From contig JAEHKV010000081.1 of the NCBI GenBank assembly GCA_016838845.1, forward strand, positions 1-37,652: a stretch of DNA of 37,652 nucleotides, in the 5' to 3' direction. A program made the position numbers and the translations under genes. Origin of the DNA: Nitrosopumilales archaeon. GTDB taxonomy: Archaea > Thermoproteota > Nitrososphaeria > Nitrososphaerales > Nitrosopumilaceae. The first letter of the stretch is position 1, and each line of letters opens with the position of its first letter. Below the pieces are notes generated by a model. It saw only the letters and a list, made by a program, of their open reading frames with translations. It did not search any database and was not told where the DNA came from. This document shows positions 2,174 through 16,693 of this stretch, one piece after another.

Positions 2174-3499
2174 TTGACAGTCAAACTAGACAAAAAAGAC
2201 GTGACACAAACGACAGAAGATGCACTAGCACTATTCAGAACAGGAATAAAATCAGAAAAAACACGGGAAACTTATGAAAAAAGGTTAAAGGAATTTCTTT
2301 GTGGAACCTTAGAAAATTACCTTGACGGAGATAAAGATCTTCGAGAAAAACAACGTCAACAAAGACTAGCTGATGGAGATAAGAAGAAGATTAGCTTGAT
2401 TCTAGACGCTGATTTTTCAATCAGGGCAAATGAGCTAGTTAAGAAAACAAAGGAAGATCCTGATGAAATAATGGGATTGTTACTAACCTATTCTACTAAA
2501 TTAAAAGAAAGATGTGAAAAATCAAAAGAGGATCCGGACTATCTTAACCCTAACACCATTCCAAACATGTTCAAACCCATAAAGAAGCTATTCAAGATGA
2601 ATGGTGTCCACTTTGAATGGCAAAGAATTGATGTAACTTATCCGGAATCAGAAACCAACCCCGAAAGTAGAGGATACACACGAGAAGAAATTAGTGAAAT
2701 CCTAAAATTTACTAATCCTCTTGAAAGTTCTGTAACTCTAACAGCTTCTTCCTCTGGAATGAGAAGAGGCGGATTTGATTTTACTTGGGATTGCATTAGA
2801 CCAGTCTATAGAAGAAATAATGACTATGTGATGGGAAGTTTTGATGACAAAGATGATTCTGACATTGTTTGTGGAATGATTATTGTTTATGCTGGTTCGA
2901 ACGCACAATACTTTGCATTATTTACGCCAGAAGCTTGGGGGGCAATACAGGTTTACAGAACTCAATGGCGTTCTGATGTTTTGCATGATCCAAAACCAAA
3001 AGATCCATTCTTGAAAAGGACTGGAAATTCAGTGATTGCTTTGAGCTGCGATGCAATGGCAAACAGACTAAACAAAATTCTCAAAAAAGCAAAGATCAGA
3101 GAGCCATTAGAAGCTGGAAAGCGGAATTACGACATACCAATAATGAATGGATTCAGAAGATTCTTCAACAAAATTAACAAAGAGACACTCTCGAATGATT
3201 CTCCATTGGCAGCTCTCATCAAAAAAGAGATGATGATGAGCCATACTGGCCTGCTAAAGCTTGACAAAAACTATTTCCAAACTCATTGGAAGGAATTAGT
3301 AATAGAATATCTTGAAGCTGTTCCATCACTAACAATATCTTCTGAAGAGCGTGCAAAAGCTGATAATAAGAGACTTAGAAGTGAGAAACTAAATCAGGAA
3401 CAACTCAGAAAACAAATGAAAGATGAACTAAAAGAAGAACTAAAAAAAGAATTTTCATTCTTTGTAGAAGGCTTTAAGTCAAAATCAAAAAGTAATTAG
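2174..3499 (+). CDS. int: Tyrosine-recombinase integrase of the tRNA-Lys element
   Basis: Site-specific recombinase that would join the element to the tRNA 3' end. 441 residues: helical N-terminal core-binding part, catalytic domain from about residue 165, and a Lys/Glu-rich coiled C-terminus (about 395-441). Visible catalytic residues are Arg197 (SSGMRRGG), Arg328 in NGFR, His357 (MMSHTG) and Tyr367 (KNYF). The first residue of the HxxR box is Asn325, where the related integrase at 15503 has His288. The TTG at 2174 is 45 nt after the att core. It shares blocks with the 15503 integrase (NPNT...KPIKKL, GYTREE, TPEA). Confidence 0.92.
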   Translation: MTVKLDKKDVTQTTEDALALFRTGIKSEKTRETYEKRLKEFLCGTLENYLDGDKDLREKQRQQRLADGDKKKISLILDADFSIRANELVKKTKEDPDEIMGLLLTYSTKLKERCEKSKEDPDYLNPNTIPNMFKPIKKLFKMNGVHFEWQRIDVTYPESETNPESRGYTREEISEILKFTNPLESSVTLTASSSGMRRGGFDFTWDCIRPVYRRNNDYVMGSFDDKDDSDIVCGMIIVYAGSNAQYFALFTPEAWGAIQVYRTQWRSDVLHDPKPKDPFLKRTGNSVIALSCDAMANRLNKILKKAKIREPLEAGKRNYDIPIMNGFRRFFNKINKETLSNDSPLAALIKKEMMMSHTGLLKLDKNYFQTHWKELVIEYLEAVPSLTISSEERAKADNKRLRSEKLNQEQLRKQMKDELKEELKKEFSFFVEGFKSKSKSN

Positions 3500-4120
3500 T
3501 TATTCTTTCAAAGATTTTCTAGATTCTTCTAGCTTACTATGTTCGCTCTTCTGGAATTTTAAGAAATAATTGATTTCATCTAACGCTTCTGAATCTCTTT
3601 GCTCTAAATCCGCCATTACATGAATAGCAATGTCCCCGTCTACACCTTTAGCTAATTCATTCAAAAATTCGTCAATTCTTTTTTGAAGATCAGTCCAATG
3701 TTTAGGGTGCTTCCTAAAACCATTTGTTGTAAGAATAAATATAACAAAATCACGAAATGCAAAAACCTTCTTGTACGCAGATCGATAAACAGAAATGACT
3801 TCTTTGTGAGGCCTGTTCTCAACAAATTTCAAGCTTTTCTTAATTTTTGACTCCATAATTTCATAGTCTTCCATCACTTTTTTCCTCAAAGTATCAAAAC
3901 TTGGAAAAATTTTTGTTGAAACGAACCATGCTTTCTCATTCTGTTGTAATCTTTGAAGCTCAATTAATCCATAATCCTGTAATCTTCCCAAATATTTTGA
4001 AGTAGTTTCTTTAGGCAAGTCAGCTAATGCAGCTGCTTTAACGTCATTAATTCCAGGATTTTCCTTTACGATCTCAAATAATCTTTCTTCATATTGATTT
4101 AGATCTATTTTTTCACTCAT
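3500..4120 (-). CDS. Winged-helix regulator with helical C-terminal domain
   Basis: The N-terminus (KENPGINDVKAAALADLP then TTSKYLGRLQDYGLIEL) reads as a winged helix: recognition helix plus wing. The remaining 140 residues are charged and helical. ATG at 4120 (MSEKIDLNQ) is preferred to a TTG 21 nt upstream. It is divergent from the operon starting at 4174, with about 50 nt between the starts, so it is a candidate repressor of that operon and of itself. Its 3' end abuts the integrase stop. Family below the winged-helix level is not recognised. Confidence 0.7.
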   Translation of the reverse strand: MSEKIDLNQYEERLFEIVKENPGINDVKAAALADLPKETTSKYLGRLQDYGLIELQRLQQNEKAWFVSTKIFPSFDTLRKKVMEDYEIMESKIKKSLKFVENRPHKEVISVYRSAYKKVFAFRDFVIFILTTNGFRKHPKHWTDLQKRIDEFLNELAKGVDGDIAIHVMADLEQRDSEALDEINYFLKFQKSEHSKLEESRKSLKE

Positions 4121-4173
4121 ATAGGAACGTCTTTGACACAATCCTATGTTAATTTTCGTATACTATACAATGT

Positions 4174-5520: not shown

Positions 5521-5550
5521 TCATAACTTGGGAGGGGAAAAATTTTTTCG

Positions 5551-6483
5551 ATTAATGAAAAATTAGACAGCATACAATCGGATATTTCTAAAATCAAAAC
5601 ACACCTAAAAATTGTTGAGGATCGTGAAATAACTATCACAGACTTTGAGGGTAAAATTTTAGAGTATACTCAATATGCACAAGACGAGCTTAAAATTGGT
5701 AAGGGGACTATTGATAATCATAAATCGATTATCCGATCTTTTCATTCACATTCGGGAGGAATAATCAATCGAGAAACAGTAAAAGCATATCTTGAATCTA
5801 ATGATTCACAAGATTGGAAGTCAAACCAAATCAAGGCATTACGGAAGTATATCCGTGATTTTCTAAAGCTTGGTAATTGGATTAATGAGTTCAAATTCTC
5901 AAAGAAAAAAACCAGCATAAAAAAGACAGACATTCCAACGGATGAAGAGCTTGCCTATTTCTGTGCGCAGCTACCATACCATATACAGATGGTGTTCTTG
6001 ATCCTGCTTACTTCTGGACTTCGAGTTGGTGAGGTATTGAAATTAAGAGAAAGTGACATTGACTTTGAAACAAACATGATTGATGCATCCGGAATCCACA
6101 AGGGAGATACAAAGTCTGCATGGATTAGCTATGTTACTTATCAGACAGCAGATTATGTGCAAAGCTACATTGAAACCGAAATCGATTCTTCAGATGATCC
6201 AAAGCTTTTCGACATATCTTACAATACTGTTCAAGAGGCTTTCAAAAAAGCATCAATTCAAACAGGAGTATTCATCAAACCACACTTTTTGAGGACAGTT
6301 TTCACAGAAAAATGCACACAAGCTAACATTGAGGGCAAGTACATCGATGCTTTTTGTGGAAGAATCCCAAAAAAGATCTTAGAATCTAACTACACAGTTT
6401 ACTCACCCCAATCTTTGAGCAAACAATATGAAAAAGTGGAAGAGTTTTTGGTCTTACCTTTTTCTGAGGATGAAGAAAGCTAG
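5551..6483 (+). CDS. Second tyrosine recombinase (XerA-like), non-ATG start
   Basis: The frame is open from 5527 to the stop at 6483. It encodes an N-terminal core-binding domain (EYTQYAQDELKIG, NQIKALRKYIRDFLKLGNW) followed by a catalytic domain with Arg in TSGLRVGEV, HFLR, a late GR in place of the usual His, and a Tyr in NYTVYSP. The first ATG is at 5989, inside the catalytic domain just before its Arg, so it cannot be the true start. No ATG, GTG or TTG occurs in frame upstream. ATT at 5542 or 5551, after GGGAGGGG (5530-5537), is the best candidate. About 310 residues. It may act in element resolution or inversion. Confidence 0.7.
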   Translation: MNEKLDSIQSDISKIKTHLKIVEDREITITDFEGKILEYTQYAQDELKIGKGTIDNHKSIIRSFHSHSGGIINRETVKAYLESNDSQDWKSNQIKALRKYIRDFLKLGNWINEFKFSKKKTSIKKTDIPTDEELAYFCAQLPYHIQMVFLILLTSGLRVGEVLKLRESDIDFETNMIDASGIHKGDTKSAWISYVTYQTADYVQSYIETEIDSSDDPKLFDISYNTVQEAFKKASIQTGVFIKPHFLRTVFTEKCTQANIEGKYIDAFCGRIPKKILESNYTVYSPQSLSKQYEKVEEFLVLPFSEDEES

Positions 6484-6521
6484 TTTTTTGGCATTTTGCG
6501 ATATCACAATTTGTTACAATT

Positions 6522-6709
6522 AGCTACAATAGCTAATGTAGCTTTTTCTCCATGCGTAACATAGCTGTCACAAACAGCTTTTGTTACGCACAAAACAGCT
6601 ACAAAAGCTGTTTGTAGCTAATTGTGGTGCGCCACATCGCTGTTTTTAGCTATTTTGCGGTAGCTATAGCTATAACAAACAGCTGCAAATTGTAGCTAAT
6701 TGTGGTGCG
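6522..6709. repeat. AGCT-dense repeat field
   Basis: Thirteen AGCT tetramers lie in 176 bp (first 6522, last 6694). Nested inverted repeats include GCGTAACA (6554-6561) with TGTTACGC (6582-6589) enclosing AGCTGT/ACAGCT, and ACAGCT (6595-6600) with AGCTGT (6606-6611). A 20-bp direct repeat at 6612-6631 recurs at 6690-6709 (core TAGCTAATTGTGGTGCG). No ORF. Candidate replication origin, operator array or structured RNA. This is the main content of the 6484-6842 gene-free stretch. Confidence 0.75.
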
Positions 6710-6726
6710 TAAAGAAAATGTTCGCT

Positions 6727-6755
6727 TTCGGGTAATCTTAGTATGATTACCCGAA
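6727..6755. repeat. Perfect 11-bp inverted repeat, TAATC/GATTA family
   Basis: TTCGGGTAATC pairs with GATTACCCGAA across a 7-nt loop. Longest of six related hairpins in the element. It lies between the recombinase and the fusion gene, so it could be a terminator or operator. Confidence 0.75.
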
Positions 6756-6842
6756 CACGAAAACTTGAGATATAGCCAAAAATTTTGGGTCAACCTTTAT
6801 TCTAATCGATTAAAATATTTGGATGGAGGATGATTATTCCTT

Positions 6843-7757
6843 ATGACAAAAACTTGTTTTATTATATCATCTATTGGTAAGGAAGATTCTGAAACTAGAG
6901 CGGTGGCAGATGAAAAGTTTGAGTTAATTTTTGAACCCGCGTTAAAAGAAGCAGGATATAAAGTGACTAGAGCAGATAAAATAGGAACACCTGGTTCTAT
7001 TTCTAGAGAAATTGTTTCAAATGTAATTAATTCAGATTTAGTAATTGCTGATGTTACAGATGAGAATCCTAATGTTTTCTATGAATTAGCTATTCGCAAT
7101 GCTGCCAAAAAACCAGTAATTATTTTCAGAGGAGTAAATCAGCCCATGCCCTTTGATATTTATGATAAACGTGCTATTGATATTGATAGAAATCAACCGA
7201 GAATTTGGGAAAACGCCAAGAAAGCACTAAAAATCCACATTCAGGGAGCTGAGAAAAAACCTGAATTAGCATCCGAATCTATTTTGACAAATTTTACGTT
7301 TCAATTAGATACAGAAAAACAACCAAGTAATACAGATGAAATGTATTACATATTACGAGATTTACAACAACAAATTAGTAAAATCCCCAAATCATCTACA
7401 GATCGATATATTAGTCCTCAAGAACGTAAAATTAAAGCTGTAACAGAATCTGTACCTGAACATCTTATGGTTCGTATTACTCCTGGTTCTTCTGTTCCAG
7501 GATGTGAAAACACACATGATTGTTTTGATCCAAACATTTTGGAAATAAAACAAGGAGAAACTGTTTTGTGGTTGAATGAAGATACTGCAGCACATACAGT
7601 GACTAGTGGAACCGCAGCTGATGGTCCCAGCGATGATTTTGACAGTAGTTTATTCATGTCGGGTAATACATTTAGTCATGAGTTTGATTTTCCTGGAGAA
7701 TTCCATTATTTCGATATGGTTCATCCTTGGATGGAAGGGACAATAATAGTCAAGTAA
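6843..7757 (+). CDS. NDT/TIR-like enzyme domain fused to a cupredoxin domain lacking the copper Cys
   Basis: 304 residues. Residues 1-120 match the nucleoside 2-deoxyribosyltransferase/TIR-like fold used in many defence effectors: CFIISSIG, IADVT (68-72) and NPNVFYELA with the likely catalytic Glu81. Residues 125-215 are a linker. Residues 216-304 are a cupredoxin domain with His251, His294 and Met297 at the expected spacing, but Asp291 stands where the copper-binding Cys belongs (YFDMVHPWM). No signal peptide, so it should be cytosolic, unlike normal cupredoxins. The domain is about 60% identical to the host cupredoxin at 2-328. GGAGG lies 14 nt before the ATG. Role inferred: a nucleotide- or NAD-processing effector with a mimic or sensor domain. 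Confidence 0.8.
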   Translation: MTKTCFIISSIGKEDSETRAVADEKFELIFEPALKEAGYKVTRADKIGTPGSISREIVSNVINSDLVIADVTDENPNVFYELAIRNAAKKPVIIFRGVNQPMPFDIYDKRAIDIDRNQPRIWENAKKALKIHIQGAEKKPELASESILTNFTFQLDTEKQPSNTDEMYYILRDLQQQISKIPKSSTDRYISPQERKIKAVTESVPEHLMVRITPGSSVPGCENTHDCFDPNILEIKQGETVLWLNEDTAAHTVTSGTAADGPSDDFDSSLFMSGNTFSHEFDFPGEFHYFDMVHPWMEGTIIVK

Positions 7758-7784
7758 TTCGTAATCTGTACTAGGATTACGAAT
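7757..7784. repeat. Perfect 10-bp inverted repeat after the fusion gene
   Basis: ATTCGTAATC pairs with GATTACGAAT across an 8-nt loop and begins at the last base of the fusion stop codon. Member of the element-specific TAATC/GATTA hairpin family; placement suits a terminator. It is followed by a tail (AGTTCAAATCTCAAC) that recurs after the copy at 8991. Confidence 0.75.
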
Positions 7785-8366: not shown

Positions 8367-8419
8367 CAATCAAAGGTCAAAATAGTTACTACTCCCGTAG
8401 TCCTATCTAAGATTATGTC

Positions 8420-8442
8420 GGATAATCCTGTATAGATTATCC
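8420..8442. repeat. Inverted repeat GGATAATC/GATTATCC
   Basis: Perfect 8-bp arms with a 7-nt loop between two convergent genes (7887-8366 and 8467-8910). A partial copy (GATTATG) lies just upstream at 8411. Candidate terminator of the hairpin family. Confidence 0.65.
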
Positions 8443-8466
8443 AATAGAGGAATTTATTAAAAATAT

Positions 8467-8910: not shown

Positions 8911-8990
8911 TAAGATCTCTTTAATGCTAAAATTAATAAAATAACAGGCATGCCTGTTAAGTTCCGCTACCGTTTAGGAACTATTTTGGG

Positions 8991-9007
8991 TAATCATAGT
9001 AAGATTA
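8991..9007. repeat. TAATC-N7-GATTA hairpin (degenerate copy)
   Basis: Five-bp arms with loop ATAGTAA in the divergent region between the membrane-protein gene and the nuclease gene at 9258. It is followed by AGTTCAAATCTCAAC, the same tail as after the 7757 copy. Confidence 0.55.
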
Positions 9008-9108
9008 TACGAAGTTCAAATCTCAACAGATTCACTCATTGTTCTTTTCGTTTGTTATTGCCAACCTACAAAAATTATATTCCACTTCGCTTTATCAGAT
9101 AGAAAAGC

Positions 9109-9166
9109 CAAGGGGCTAGTGAATCGAAGCGAGGAAGAACGGGAGACAGTTCCTCCAAGCCCCTTG
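9109..9166 (+). ncRNA. Candidate structured RNA with nested stems
   Basis: CAAGGGGCT (9109-9117) pairs with AGCCCCTTG (9158-9166), and inside it GAGGAA (9131-9136) pairs with TTCCTC (9150-9155). A third palindromic run (GATCTTGATCGATC) follows at 9170-9183. The region 8945-9257 has no ORF and is locally more GC-rich than its surroundings. It could be an independent RNA, a leader of the 9258 gene, or a DNA-binding site; strand is uncertain. Confidence 0.4.
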
Positions 9167-9257
9167 ACCGATCTTGATCGATCAACTGGTCGTATTTAGG
9201 CTTTAATTGTTCGGCTTCGTCTCATTGTTCTTCTTCTCGAGACTAACTGTAATGTAA

Positions 9258-11188: not shown

Positions 11189-11243
11189 TAAGCAAGTGAT
11201 CATTACACAAAGTAACAAATCTTAGCAGATTTGCACTTCTGTA

Positions 11244-11260
11244 TAATCTATGCAGGATTA
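11244..11260. repeat. TAATC-N7-GATTA hairpin
   Basis: Arms TAATC/GATTA with loop TATGCAG, in the gap between two convergent genes; a second GATTA lies at 11281. Terminator-like placement. Confidence 0.55.
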
Positions 11261-11305
11261 CTCGACATAGTCTTAGATAGGATTATGAAACTACGTTTAA
11301 AGTGA

Positions 11306-12537: not shown

Positions 12538-12575
12538 AAGATTATTTTTTATTCCATTGAACTTTTAATATTGTG

Positions 12576-13751
12576 ATGCAAATAGTCGAGTCAAAGGCAA
12601 AATCAAAGCATGGCACCCCTACTGTACTCTCGCTATTTACTTGCGGAATGGGGATGGATCTGGGTTTCGAAAAGGCTGGTTTTGAGATAGTCTATACCAA
12701 CGACATAGCCAAATTTGCTTGTGAGACCATAAGAGCAAACAGGCCCAAAATATTGTGTGATGAGGGAGACATAATTGAAATTCCAACTAATGAAATCTTG
12801 AAAAAAATTGGTCTAAGAGATAATAAAATAGATGTAATTATTGGGGGGCCACCATGTCAATCATTTTCAACAGCTGGAATGCGGAATGGTTTTTCTGACA
12901 AACGAGGAATCGCATTACTAGAGTTTATCAGGATTGTTAAAGAAACAAGGCCAAAAATTTTCATCTTTGAAAATGTTGCTGGTTTAAAATCAATGCCAAA
13001 AAAACATGTGTCATTTTATGAGCGGCTGAAACAAAAAAAGAAAAAACTTTCAAAAGAGCAACAGTATGGATCACTCTTTGAAGAAATCCTTGAAAGATTT
13101 GAATCAATAGAAGGATACAAAGTTGACTGGGACATCCTAAATGCGGCAGACTTTGGAGTTGCACAAAAAAGAAAAAGGCTAATCCTTATTGGCTCACGGA
13201 AATTTTCCCCAACAAAAACTCTTGAAGAAATTAAGAATAATGCAGTATTCGCTGACCCAAAAATTGCTAATAAAGTTGGTAAGCGAAAATGGAAAAATCT
13301 AAGACAAGCACTAAAGGGATTAGAAGATAAAGAAAAAGAATGCACTAGGTTTCCAAAATGGGGAAAATACCTCAAACATGTTCCTCCAGGAGGATGTTGG
13401 GTCGATTTGCCAAAGTCAATGCAGAAAAAAGCAATGGGAGGAGCTGCAGATACTACTGATCCTTTAAGGAAAGGAAAACAGGGAGGTAGGAGAGGATTCT
13501 TTAGAAGGTTGAGTTGGGACGAACCATCACCAACTCTAGTAACTTCACCAACTCAGATGGGAACCTGCTTGTGCCATCCCAATGAAAACCGACCACTAAC
13601 TGTAAAAGAATATGCAAGACTACAAGATTTCCCAGACAATTGGAATTTTGTTGGCTCTACACACCAAAAATATAGGATGATAGGGGAAGCGATTCCAGTC
13701 AAGCTTGCGGAAGCTATTGCTTCCGTTACCTACGACCATTTAAGAAGATAA
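12576..13751 (+). CDS. DNA (cytosine-5-)-methyltransferase
   Basis: Full-length modification enzyme. Numbered from the GTG at 12573, the motifs are: I at 22-29 (FTCGMGMD, with Cys where Gly is common), IV at 91-100 (GGPPCQSFST, catalytic Cys95), VI (FENV), VIII (QKRKR), IX (RRLSWDEPSPTL) and X (MIGEAIPVKLAEAI). The target-recognition region lies between VIII and IX (about 220-310). ATG at 12576 is chosen over GTG at 12573. With Vsr upstream and a probable restriction enzyme at 13842 it forms a type II R-M system. Recognition sequence cannot be told from the sequence. Confidence 0.95.
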   Translation: MQIVESKAKSKHGTPTVLSLFTCGMGMDLGFEKAGFEIVYTNDIAKFACETIRANRPKILCDEGDIIEIPTNEILKKIGLRDNKIDVIIGGPPCQSFSTAGMRNGFSDKRGIALLEFIRIVKETRPKIFIFENVAGLKSMPKKHVSFYERLKQKKKKLSKEQQYGSLFEEILERFESIEGYKVDWDILNAADFGVAQKRKRLILIGSRKFSPTKTLEEIKNNAVFADPKIANKVGKRKWKNLRQALKGLEDKEKECTRFPKWGKYLKHVPPGGCWVDLPKSMQKKAMGGAADTTDPLRKGKQGGRRGFFRRLSWDEPSPTLVTSPTQMGTCLCHPNENRPLTVKEYARLQDFPDNWNFVGSTHQKYRMIGEAIPVKLAEAIASVTYDHLRR

Positions 13752-15094: not shown

Positions 15095-15108
15095 TCGTAA
15101 TTTCTTGA

Positions 15109-15282
15109 ATGAAACAGAAGATTTTTAGATGGAATTCAGGTACTGGATTTCCTATGCCATATGAAATACCTATAGACAAACTTCGTTCTTGCAATGACTG
15201 TGGTTGCGTGTATGTGGATCAACCAGATTTTACAAAATGCCCAGTATGTGGTGGTTTAGCAAGAAATAAAATAGTAAAATAA
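15109..15282 (+). CDS. Small zinc-ribbon protein
   Basis: 57 residues. Two Cys pairs, CNDC and CPVC, about 20 residues apart form a typical zinc ribbon near the C-terminus; the N-terminus (KQKIFRWNSGTGFPMPYEIP) is unrecognised. It starts 14 nt after the HEPN-like gene, probably in the same transcript. It is the last gene before the right att site. Partner or regulator of the preceding protein is possible. Confidence 0.6.
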   Translation: MKQKIFRWNSGTGFPMPYEIPIDKLRSCNDCGCVYVDQPDFTKCPVCGGLARNKIVK

Positions 15283-15382
15283 AAAATAATTTTTCTTGTA
15301 ATAATAATTTCTTTTATGAAATTACTAGAAAAACTGCCATCCTATATTCAAGAGAGAAAATTGTAGCTTAATCATGAACGGG

Positions 15383-15399
15383 TAATCAAAGTAAGATTA
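15383..15399. repeat. TAATC-N7-GATTA hairpin, rightmost copy
   Basis: Arms TAATC/GATTA with loop AAAGTAA, 40 bp inside the right end of the element. Same family as 6727, 7757, 8420, 8991 and 11244. The gap 15283-15439 holds nothing else but the diverged repeat at 15404. Confidence 0.55.
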
Positions 15400-15403
15400 T
15401 GTA

Positions 15404-15434
15404 GGCATAAAGCCAAAAGACACGTTTCATTTTT
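15404..15434 (+). repeat. Diverged direct repeat, right copy
   Basis: Partner of 14563-14587. Shares GGCATAAA and ACGTTTCATTTTT and ends five bases before the att repeat. Confidence 0.4.
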
Positions 15435-15439
15435 GCCCA

Positions 15440-15458
15440 GAATCCCTCTAGACCCGCT
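15440..15458 (+). repeat. attR of element 1 / probable attL of a tandem element
   Basis: Exact 19-bp copy of 2111-2129. A shorter 9-bp copy (TAGACCCGC) follows at 15478-15486. The integrase at 15503 starts 45 nt after the core, the same distance as integrase 1 from its core, so this site also looks like the left end of a second element. Confidence 0.85.
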
Positions 15459-15502
15459 ACGTAAGTTGGTCTTAAAATAGACCCGCCTGTACCTAACATT
15501 AA

Positions 15503-16693
15503 ATGCAAATTTCAATTAAGGATGTACATGCCAGAGAAGATCCATACCGACTCTTCCTTGATTCCATAAAAAACTCTGACACCAGAAGAAAATACAAAAA
15601 CATCCTTTACAGGTTTTTAAAACTAATCCCAAACCAGTTTTATGAAGATTCCATAGGCCATTCACCTAAAAACACTAAAATCGAAACTCTTGCCAAGTCG
15701 TTTGTATATCTTACAAAGAATGATCCGAAATTAGCTCAAAATATCATAGCAACATTCATCAAAGAAGAGAAAAAGCTAGTAGAATCTGGTGAGTTAAACC
15801 CAAACACTTTATCAAATCACATCAAACCCATCAAAGCATTACTTGATGCAAATTCAATTGCATTACATTGGAAAACACTCCATAAATTGTATCCAAGACC
15901 AAAAAAGACACAAGATCGAGCCTATACTAGACAAGAATTACAGCAAATGATAGAAGCTTCACCTGACATTACAGACAAGCTAATAATTCAGTTATTTTCT
16001 TCAGGTGGGTTTCGATTAGAAGCATGGGATTATTTCACTTGGAAGGATGTGATATTTTTCAAAAATGATGATAATTCCTACCAAGGGGCCGCCTTGCTGG
16101 TTTACAGAGGCGACCCTGAAAGCTATTGGACGTTTATTACTCCAGAAGCATGCCACACATTAGACCATTATAGAGAGGTTTGGAAGTCAGACATCGGAAG
16201 ATATCCAAAACCAGATGAACCTTTGATCAAATCTGTTAGATTCCCTGTAATTCGAAGACTAAATGCGTTGGGTGTAAAGCGAAGAATTCAAAAAATTGTA
16301 AAAAAGATTGGTCTACGACCTTCATTACCAGAAGGAAAGAAGAGACATGATGTTCCTTTAGATCATGGCTTTAGAAAATATTTCAACACAATGATGAGAC
16401 GTGCCAAGGTTAACTATCTGGACAAGGAGGACATGATGGGCCATTCTGTGGGGCTTGAAAAACATTATGAAAGATATCAAGAAGAAGATTTTGAAAGATT
16501 TCCAGAGTATCAAAAAGCAATTCCATTTTTGACAATCTCTGATACAGAACGAATTAGATTAGAAAATCAGCAGTTAGAGAAAGAAAAATCAGAACTTGAA
16601 ATGCAAAAAGGAAAAGTTGTAAAATTTGAATTAGATATGAAAGAAATGCAGGAGAAAATCCGAATTCTTGCAGAAAAGTTACTGGTCGAATAA
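15503..16693 (+). CDS. int: Second tRNA-Lys-type tyrosine integrase
   Basis: 396 residues, homologous to the 2174 integrase and with a full active site: Arg171 (SGGFRLEAW), HGFR with His288/Arg291, His314 (MMGHSVG) and Tyr322 (KHYERY). The C-terminus (about 345-396) is a Glu/Lys-rich coiled coil, as in integrase 1. ATG at 15503, 45 nt after the att core. The gene is intact although little else of its element is visible. Shared blocks with integrase 1 include NPNTL...KPIKAL and RAYTRQE. Confidence 0.92.
   Translation: MQISIKDVHAREDPYRLFLDSIKNSDTRRKYKNILYRFLKLIPNQFYEDSIGHSPKNTKIETLAKSFVYLTKNDPKLAQNIIATFIKEEKKLVESGELNPNTLSNHIKPIKALLDANSIALHWKTLHKLYPRPKKTQDRAYTRQELQQMIEASPDITDKLIIQLFSSGGFRLEAWDYFTWKDVIFFKNDDNSYQGAALLVYRGDPESYWTFITPEACHTLDHYREVWKSDIGRYPKPDEPLIKSVRFPVIRRLNALGVKRRIQKIVKKIGLRPSLPEGKKRHDVPLDHGFRKYFNTMMRRAKVNYLDKEDMMGHSVGLEKHYERYQEEDFERFPEYQKAIPFLTISDTERIRLENQQLEKEKSELEMQKGKVVKFELDMKEMQEKIRILAEKLLVE

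Follow-up and report, generated by a model that had tools for sequence, protein, structure and literature searches.

A repeat field beside a XerA-like recombinase as a candidate part of an attachment region for dif-like gene cassettes in Nitrosopumilus-type archaea

A word field on an integrated element

A dense field of AGCT repeats lies directly downstream of a tyrosine recombinase gene on an integrated archaeal element, which raises the question of what such a field might do there. The field is located in a window of 37,652 nucleotides (the whole stretch of DNA analysed here), which is contig C81 of a 1.52-Mb genome in 174 contigs. A tRNA-Lys gene (2054-2128) ends in an 18-bp left attachment repeat (2111-2128) that is matched exactly by a right attachment repeat at 15440-15457, so that the element integrated at tRNA-Lys is about 13.3 kb in size. 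Its genes encode, in order, an integrase (2174-3499), a product that we take to be a wHTH protein (3500-4141; Pfam gave no match), a small protein, an HNH protein, a second small protein and the recombinase, followed by the field and the accessory genes. The cargo includes a TIR-like protein and a restriction nuclease of the EcoO109I family (3e-12) with an adjoining C5-methyltransferase (12573-13751) and Vsr; no known Rep was found in the element. Recombinase, field, anchor, cores and attachment repeats are given on the + strand, except for one double core on the - strand that is indicated below.

The recombinase is an open frame at 5527-6483 (Pfam Phage_integrase, 9.5e-9). Its best profile is NCBIfam XerA_Arch (1.8e-26), yet it scores 93 bits against a cut-off of 220, and it fails the integron-integrase profile TIGR02249 with 33.7 bits against a cut-off of 265. 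A structure model (mean pLDDT 84.6, pTM 0.58) is nearest by E-value to XerA crystal structures, with the integron integrase 2a3v at ranks 8-10 of the matches; the TM-scores are modest owing to uncertain domain placement. None of the start codons ATG, GTG and TTG occurs in the frame ahead of residue 154, and an upstream ATG (5517), separated from the frame by a homopolymer run (5537-5547), does not read in phase with it. The gene may therefore be frameshifted or mis-sequenced, a sequencing error or a genuine frameshift near 5537-5547 being likely. Homologous recombinases were identified in 15 of 300 related genomes and at 14 loci in named metagenome-assembled genomes (MAGs), these loci partly overlapping; among named records, the closest recombinases come from Nitrosopumilus and Thaumarchaeota MAGs, and IMG/VR yielded a single remote match.

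The first-pass annotation had been drawn to this place by its AGCT density, and its count was confirmed: 13 AGCT occur within 6522-6697 (176 bp), where about 0.7 are expected from the mean density of the window. When the whole window was shuffled 50 times preserving dinucleotides, the best 176-bp stretch held no more than 6 (mean of maxima 4.1), and shuffling of the field region itself gave a maximum of 6. The nested inverted repeat was also recovered, as a dyad GCGTAACA-AGCTGT...ACAGCT...TGTTACGC at 6555-6590, as were both exact copies of the 20-bp direct repeat (6612-6631 and 6690-6709), offset from each other by 78 bp. An inverted pair of the arm motif described below, ATGCGTAA ... TTACGCAC, encloses the AGCTGT/ACAGCT dyad at 6552-6593, and two perfect 15-bp inverted repeats are located in and around the field (6570-6584/6601-6615 and 6516-6530/6689-6703). 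The non-coding gap, 6484-6842, is indeed long (359 bp), but it is not clearly the longest of the element, as had been claimed, since 8911-9257 (347 bp) and 15095-15457 (363 bp) are comparable. The feature is larger than first described: a field of iterated AGCTA words and nested dyads extends from the recombinase stop codon to an anchor core (6484-6726), and the whole reaches an anchor site and a landmark, ending near 6800. The field contains 17 AGCTA in 244 bp, a count reached by none of 200 shuffles, and its single strands fold far beyond chance expectation (RNA z -8.1, DNA z -7.0; overall range z -7 to -9).

AGCT density alone was tried as a genome-wide marker and rejected: AGCT triples occur 33 times in the source genome and are present in all 61 genomes searched, so that density is not diagnostic. 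A similarity search with the field DNA, which returned only short chance-like matches beyond a second element of the same genome (C40), is uninformative because the words differ between lineages; a search of a phage collection returned no match.

Fields and anchors in related genomes

Whether a field is conserved beside the recombinase in related elements had been proposed as a check, and AGCT-type fields were found directly downstream of the recombinase in C40, G003, LS_AOA/G173 and the NORP47a and NORP47b copies. C40 resembles the window element in gene order, and its recombinase shares 61% identity with that of the window; the field downstream of its recombinase stop codon is 94% identical to the window field over 87 bp, and its word enrichment is weak, being reached by 16 of 200 shuffles. 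The words after homologous recombinases are AGCTA in the window, G003, LS_AOA and the NORP47 copies, and other words take the same place elsewhere (GCTAC in OFTM383, GTACA in bin.103, CAACT in REEA14). In NORP47a the unit GTAGCTGTTT is repeated at exact 10-bp steps, and the words of NORP47a and REEA14, which follow one another at about 10 bp, point to a spacing of one helical turn. No word field was present at five recombinase loci (OTU3, NORP47d, OFTM383b, L119 and L120).

In Nitrosopumilus-type MAGs the order is recombinase, often a field of short-word repeats, and then an anchor. Comparison of about 18 anchors gave a common layout, namely an arm motif (RTGCSTRA) and, after a spacer of 16 bp, a dif-like core, which is followed at 33-44 bp by a landmark resembling AAAATTTTGGGTCRACCTTTTTT (TCRACCTTTTT-type). 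The window contains this layout complete at 6705-6800: the arm motif GTGCGTAA (6705-6712) lies 16 bp upstream of the 9-bp arm of the anchor core TTCGGGTAATC-TTAGTAT-GATTACCCGAA (6727-6755), a dif-like palindrome with 11-bp arms and a 7-bp centre, and the landmark AAAAATTTTGGGTCAACCTTTAT (6778-6800), common to anchors in G003, G002, G058, G144, NORP47 and others, follows downstream. In 11 of the approximately 18 anchors the best arm-like octamer precedes the core by exactly 16 bp (four full and seven partial matches), and in none of the simple cassette sites examined was an arm motif seen at that distance. RTGCSTRA occurs 19 times across 15 fields, where 0.84 would be expected (3.8 per kb, and 0.26 per kb elsewhere), and in some cases two copies form an inverted pair; the count is partly post hoc, as it was made in the loci that had revealed the motif.

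The combined pattern arm-N19-GTARTC-N8-GAYTAC matched nine places in 250 genomes of the family, and its reversed control matched none. Those previously known were in G003, G144, C40 and the OFTM383 locus. Among the newly found places a landmark and a significant word field are present at L134, and no field at L129, L130, L131 and L133, indicating that anchors occur away from fields too, although some of these matches may be due to chance. A strict landmark pattern (GATTACGNA...GTCRACCTTT) proved too narrow, with matches in three genomes, and the full anchor pattern had no match in IMG/VR.

Several related loci show variations on this arrangement. In G002:C73 (L091, 10260-10800) two anchors that share a centre and are inverted relative to each other flank a field holding 20 AGCT in 300 bp; this field could itself be an invertible or mobile non-coding module. 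In REEA14 (L116, 6984-7556) the CAACT word field is accompanied by a variant core, TTGCGCCATC-CTATACAT-GATGACGCAA, which suggests that site and word change together. A locus in G002:C20 (L090, 7400-7560) has no AGCT words and carries, upstream of its anchor, a long hairpin with arms AGTGAGTGCGTATGA/TCATACGCACTCACT and an extra copy of the motif. In G144:C24 (L092, 7109-8560) a word field and two anchors are found beside a relative of the 2174-3499 integrase, without the recombinase family.

Cassette cores and breaks in homology

Downstream of the anchor, simpler cores separate single genes or small gene groups. These cassette cores are 26-bp palindromes of the form TTCGTAATC-N8-GATTACGAA, and in a search allowing two mismatches or fewer they gave about 125 matches (summed from the counts listed), spread over 34 of 300 genomes and clustered at intervals of roughly 0.3-2.5 kb; the reversed control gave about 35 scattered matches. 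The geometry is 9-8-9, or 10-6-10 with Y/R ends. A limited set of 8-bp centres is common to different species, including CATAGTAA, CTATACAA, CTAGTACA, CTAGTAGA and CTATCTAA. The core pattern matched four IMG/VR contigs, which overlap one another at 99.9-100% identity and hold one isolated site and no array. Besides restriction-modification and TIR-like genes, the cassette cargo includes SIR2 and NYN proteins.

In the window, the core that follows the first cassette gene is a perfect match to the consensus (TTCGTAATC-TGTACTAG-GATTACGAA, 7758-7783) and shares its centre with cores in G001, G002 and G003. It is followed by a double core, CCCGTAGTC-CTATCTAA-GATTATGTC and then GTCGGATAATC-CTGTATA-GATTATCCAAT (8394-8445), and by TTTGGGTAATC-ATAGTAA-GATTATACGAA (8985-9013), the 3' flank of which resembles that of the 7758 core (30 bp, 87%). 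A double core on the - strand (11231-11285), with centre CTATCTAA, is an inverted copy of 8394-8445 (55 nt, 82% complementary), and a last, weak core-like palindrome, GGTAATC-AAAGTAA-GATTATG, is located just inside the right attachment repeat (15378-15404). The two inverted double cores, which share a centre, flank about 2.8 kb, and recombination between them would invert the intervening segment.

Homology between near-identical segments breaks at cores in three independent pairs. Two copies of recombinase, field and anchor in one MAG, NORP47 (L113/L115), are 99.74% identical along 1,924 nt, and their divergence sets in at the final base of a core; the two contigs could be strain variants in one assembly, the change still being located at the core. 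NORP47 and G173 (L115/L085) share, at 93% identity, a segment of 1,121 bp that carries a gene of 364 aa, and the similarity ends inside a core. In G003 and G002 (L045/L091) a gene for a NYN-domain protein matches at 97% identity across 643 nt, and the match ends 3 nt past a core. These breakpoints point to recombination at cores and support gene exchange there. We consider the existence of a cassette system to be well supported.

Interpretation of the field and comparison with known systems

In attP sites of the lambda type and in integron attI sites, recombinase or helper proteins bind accessory repeats and thereby position a core for strand exchange. A recombinase, accessory repeats, an arm and core locked in phase, and simpler cores further on together form the layout expected of an attachment region. 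Our preferred reading, which we hold to be probable by a modest degree, is that the field is the accessory part, with an attI- or attP-like role, of a composite attachment region in an integron-like, dif-module-like cassette system carried by an integrated Nitrosopumilus-type element. The recombinase just upstream, or a partner protein, would bind the iterated words and arm motifs, and the bound field would build, with the anchor core at 6727-6755, a complex for strand exchange through which gene modules with dif-like cores at their borders are inserted, removed or exchanged. In this model the recombinase presumably acts on these sites, and the field may control the reaction. Core arrays also occur without this recombinase family (G020, G058, G148 and G185), as do the field and anchors of G144, and another enzyme may therefore act on cores; for the four arrays this suggests either that a different Xer-type enzyme does so or that they are sedentary remnants.

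The first-pass annotation had considered the field to be an array of protein-binding sites. As a putative role this general idea stands, but the specific options that it offered fare worse. One was an iteron-type origin, at which the excised element would replicate after an initiator (the wHTH protein or a large helicase-like protein) had bound the words. Helically spaced iterated words and A+T-rich dyads do resemble iteron origins, and a large helicase-like protein is encoded next to the recombinase in the C40 and G003 elements; however, the helicase-like gene is absent from the window and from the LS_AOA/G173 elements despite their fields, the change in GC skew that had been proposed as a check is not seen at the field, and fields abut anchors, in G002:C73 even lying between two of them beside cassettes. 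We regard an origin as unlikely.

A promoter or operator for the first cassettes or the recombinase, acting on them as driver or repressor in the manner of the integron Pc region, is quite unlikely to explain the field. The field does lie upstream of the first cassette gene of the window, and its repeats could be operators, as had been proposed for the fusion gene there, but that gene is merely the first cassette here: the first genes after other fields are unrelated to it and run in either direction (+ in the window, - in G003 and OFTM383), and the phase-locked spacing of arm and core is left unexplained. A promoter or operator role may exist in addition to that in an attachment region.

It seems improbable that the cores are REP-like dispersed repeats or transcription terminators, with the field as a local decay product of such repeats. 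Such an origin would suit short, mostly intergenic, dispersed palindromes, but it does not account for 8-bp centres that recur as a limited set across species or for homology that ends at core edges in three independent pairs. The loop of a terminator need not be conserved.

The highly stable predicted fold (-92.9 kcal/mol for the RNA, with the z-score given above) could point to a structured non-coding RNA, yet the DNA folds equally unusually, as expected of dyad-rich DNA, the Rfam search of the field gave only sub-threshold matches, the stems of the window and C40 differ, with some paired positions changed without compensation, and the words change between lineages, all of which makes this very improbable. 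The proposal that the field is a region controlled by methylation through the element's own C5-methyltransferase is hardly credible, as the partner nuclease is EcoO109I-like, the known target of EcoO109I being RGGNCCY, its predicted site GGNCC is absent between 4959 and 7623 and hence from the field, and related fields without AGCT words exist; the literature yielded nothing specific on an AGCT methyltransferase.

If the field belongs to an attachment region, the system as a whole can be compared with four known ones. Integrons, including archaeal ones (Ghaly et al. 2022, PMC9668308), likewise combine a tyrosine recombinase gene, an adjoining platform site, small site-bounded modules and defence-type cargo, and in the window and at L110, L113 and L115 the anchor comes right after recombinase and field and is followed by more cores, as in an integron-type platform. 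The main text of that archaeal survey contains neither of the words Thaumarchae- and Nitroso-. Unlike integrons, the system described here has a recombinase that fails the IntI profile, what appear to be short dif-like palindromes in place of longer attC hairpins, and cassettes that run in both directions. The attC sites are longer imperfect hairpins with GTTRRRY/RYYYAAC boxes, and we know of no integron counterpart of the iterated-word field. By the criteria examined, the system is integron-like in layout and dif-module-like in its sites, and falls outside the IntI-type integrons.

The dif/pdif modules of Acinetobacter plasmids (PMC6449649) are genes flanked by short palindromic Xer-type sites, with site clusters in accessory regions and modules common to several species, and here too Xer-type palindromic sites delimit gene modules, which different species have in common and which show breaks in homology at cores. 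The pdif modules depend on host XerC/XerD and 28-bp sites of 11-6-11 geometry (PMC6449649), whereas here a dedicated XerA-like recombinase adjoins many arrays (others are without it), and there is a special anchor and word field. Archaeal XerA/dif chromosome resolution shares the XerA-like recombinase and an inverted-repeat core with a short centre, but employs one site per chromosome, near the terminus (PMC2958812). The cores described here, in contrast, number several per array and up to 12 per genome and are absent from most genomes of the family, which does not fit a single conserved chromosome site. No core at two mismatches or fewer was found in single-contig genomes such as G004, G005, G008 and G010, indicating that the core is not a general host dif. 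The cryptic integrated elements of Thaumarchaeota surveyed by Krupovic et al. (2019, PMC6563490) are tRNA-integrated and carry an integrase, a wHTH protein and accessory genes, a class that the window element fits; in the passages of that survey consulted here, cores, cassettes and field are not described. A search confined to open-access papers, and thus short of most subscription papers, turned up no account of such cassettes, or of a system of this kind, in Thaumarchaeota, and our claim of novelty is accordingly provisional.

More tentatively, at slightly less than even odds in our estimate, we propose an independently evolved analogue of the integron in Nitrosopumilus-type archaea. Its parts would be a recombinase derived from XerA, a platform in which a phase-locked anchor is combined with a word field that evolves fast and is specific to its lineage, and dif-like, defence-rich cassettes that spread between species. 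That the words differ from lineage to lineage suggests that recombinase and platform recognise each other by a code that changes fast. Ammonia-oxidising archaea rank among the ocean's most abundant cells, and little is known of the way in which they gain variable genes. If this proposal holds, a cassette system that has a recombinase of its own and sites that can be recognised would account for some of the turnover of their genes, among them defence-type genes of the restriction-modification, TIR, SIR2 and NYN kinds, and cassettes could be read from genomes by a simple pattern. It would also represent an integron-like solution built on a different recombinase, and the origin of such platforms would become testable.

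Two further observations concern the genes of the window. A second integrase gene (15503-16693) begins directly after the right attachment repeat, and this region (15440-16693) suggests a tandem second element or a remnant of one. The first cassette gene (6843-7757) encodes a TIR-like/nucleotide-hydrolase-like N-terminus (PADLOC TIR, 1.4e-11) fused to a C-terminal plastocyanin-type copper domain (Pfam, 2.2e-5), which is an odd pairing.
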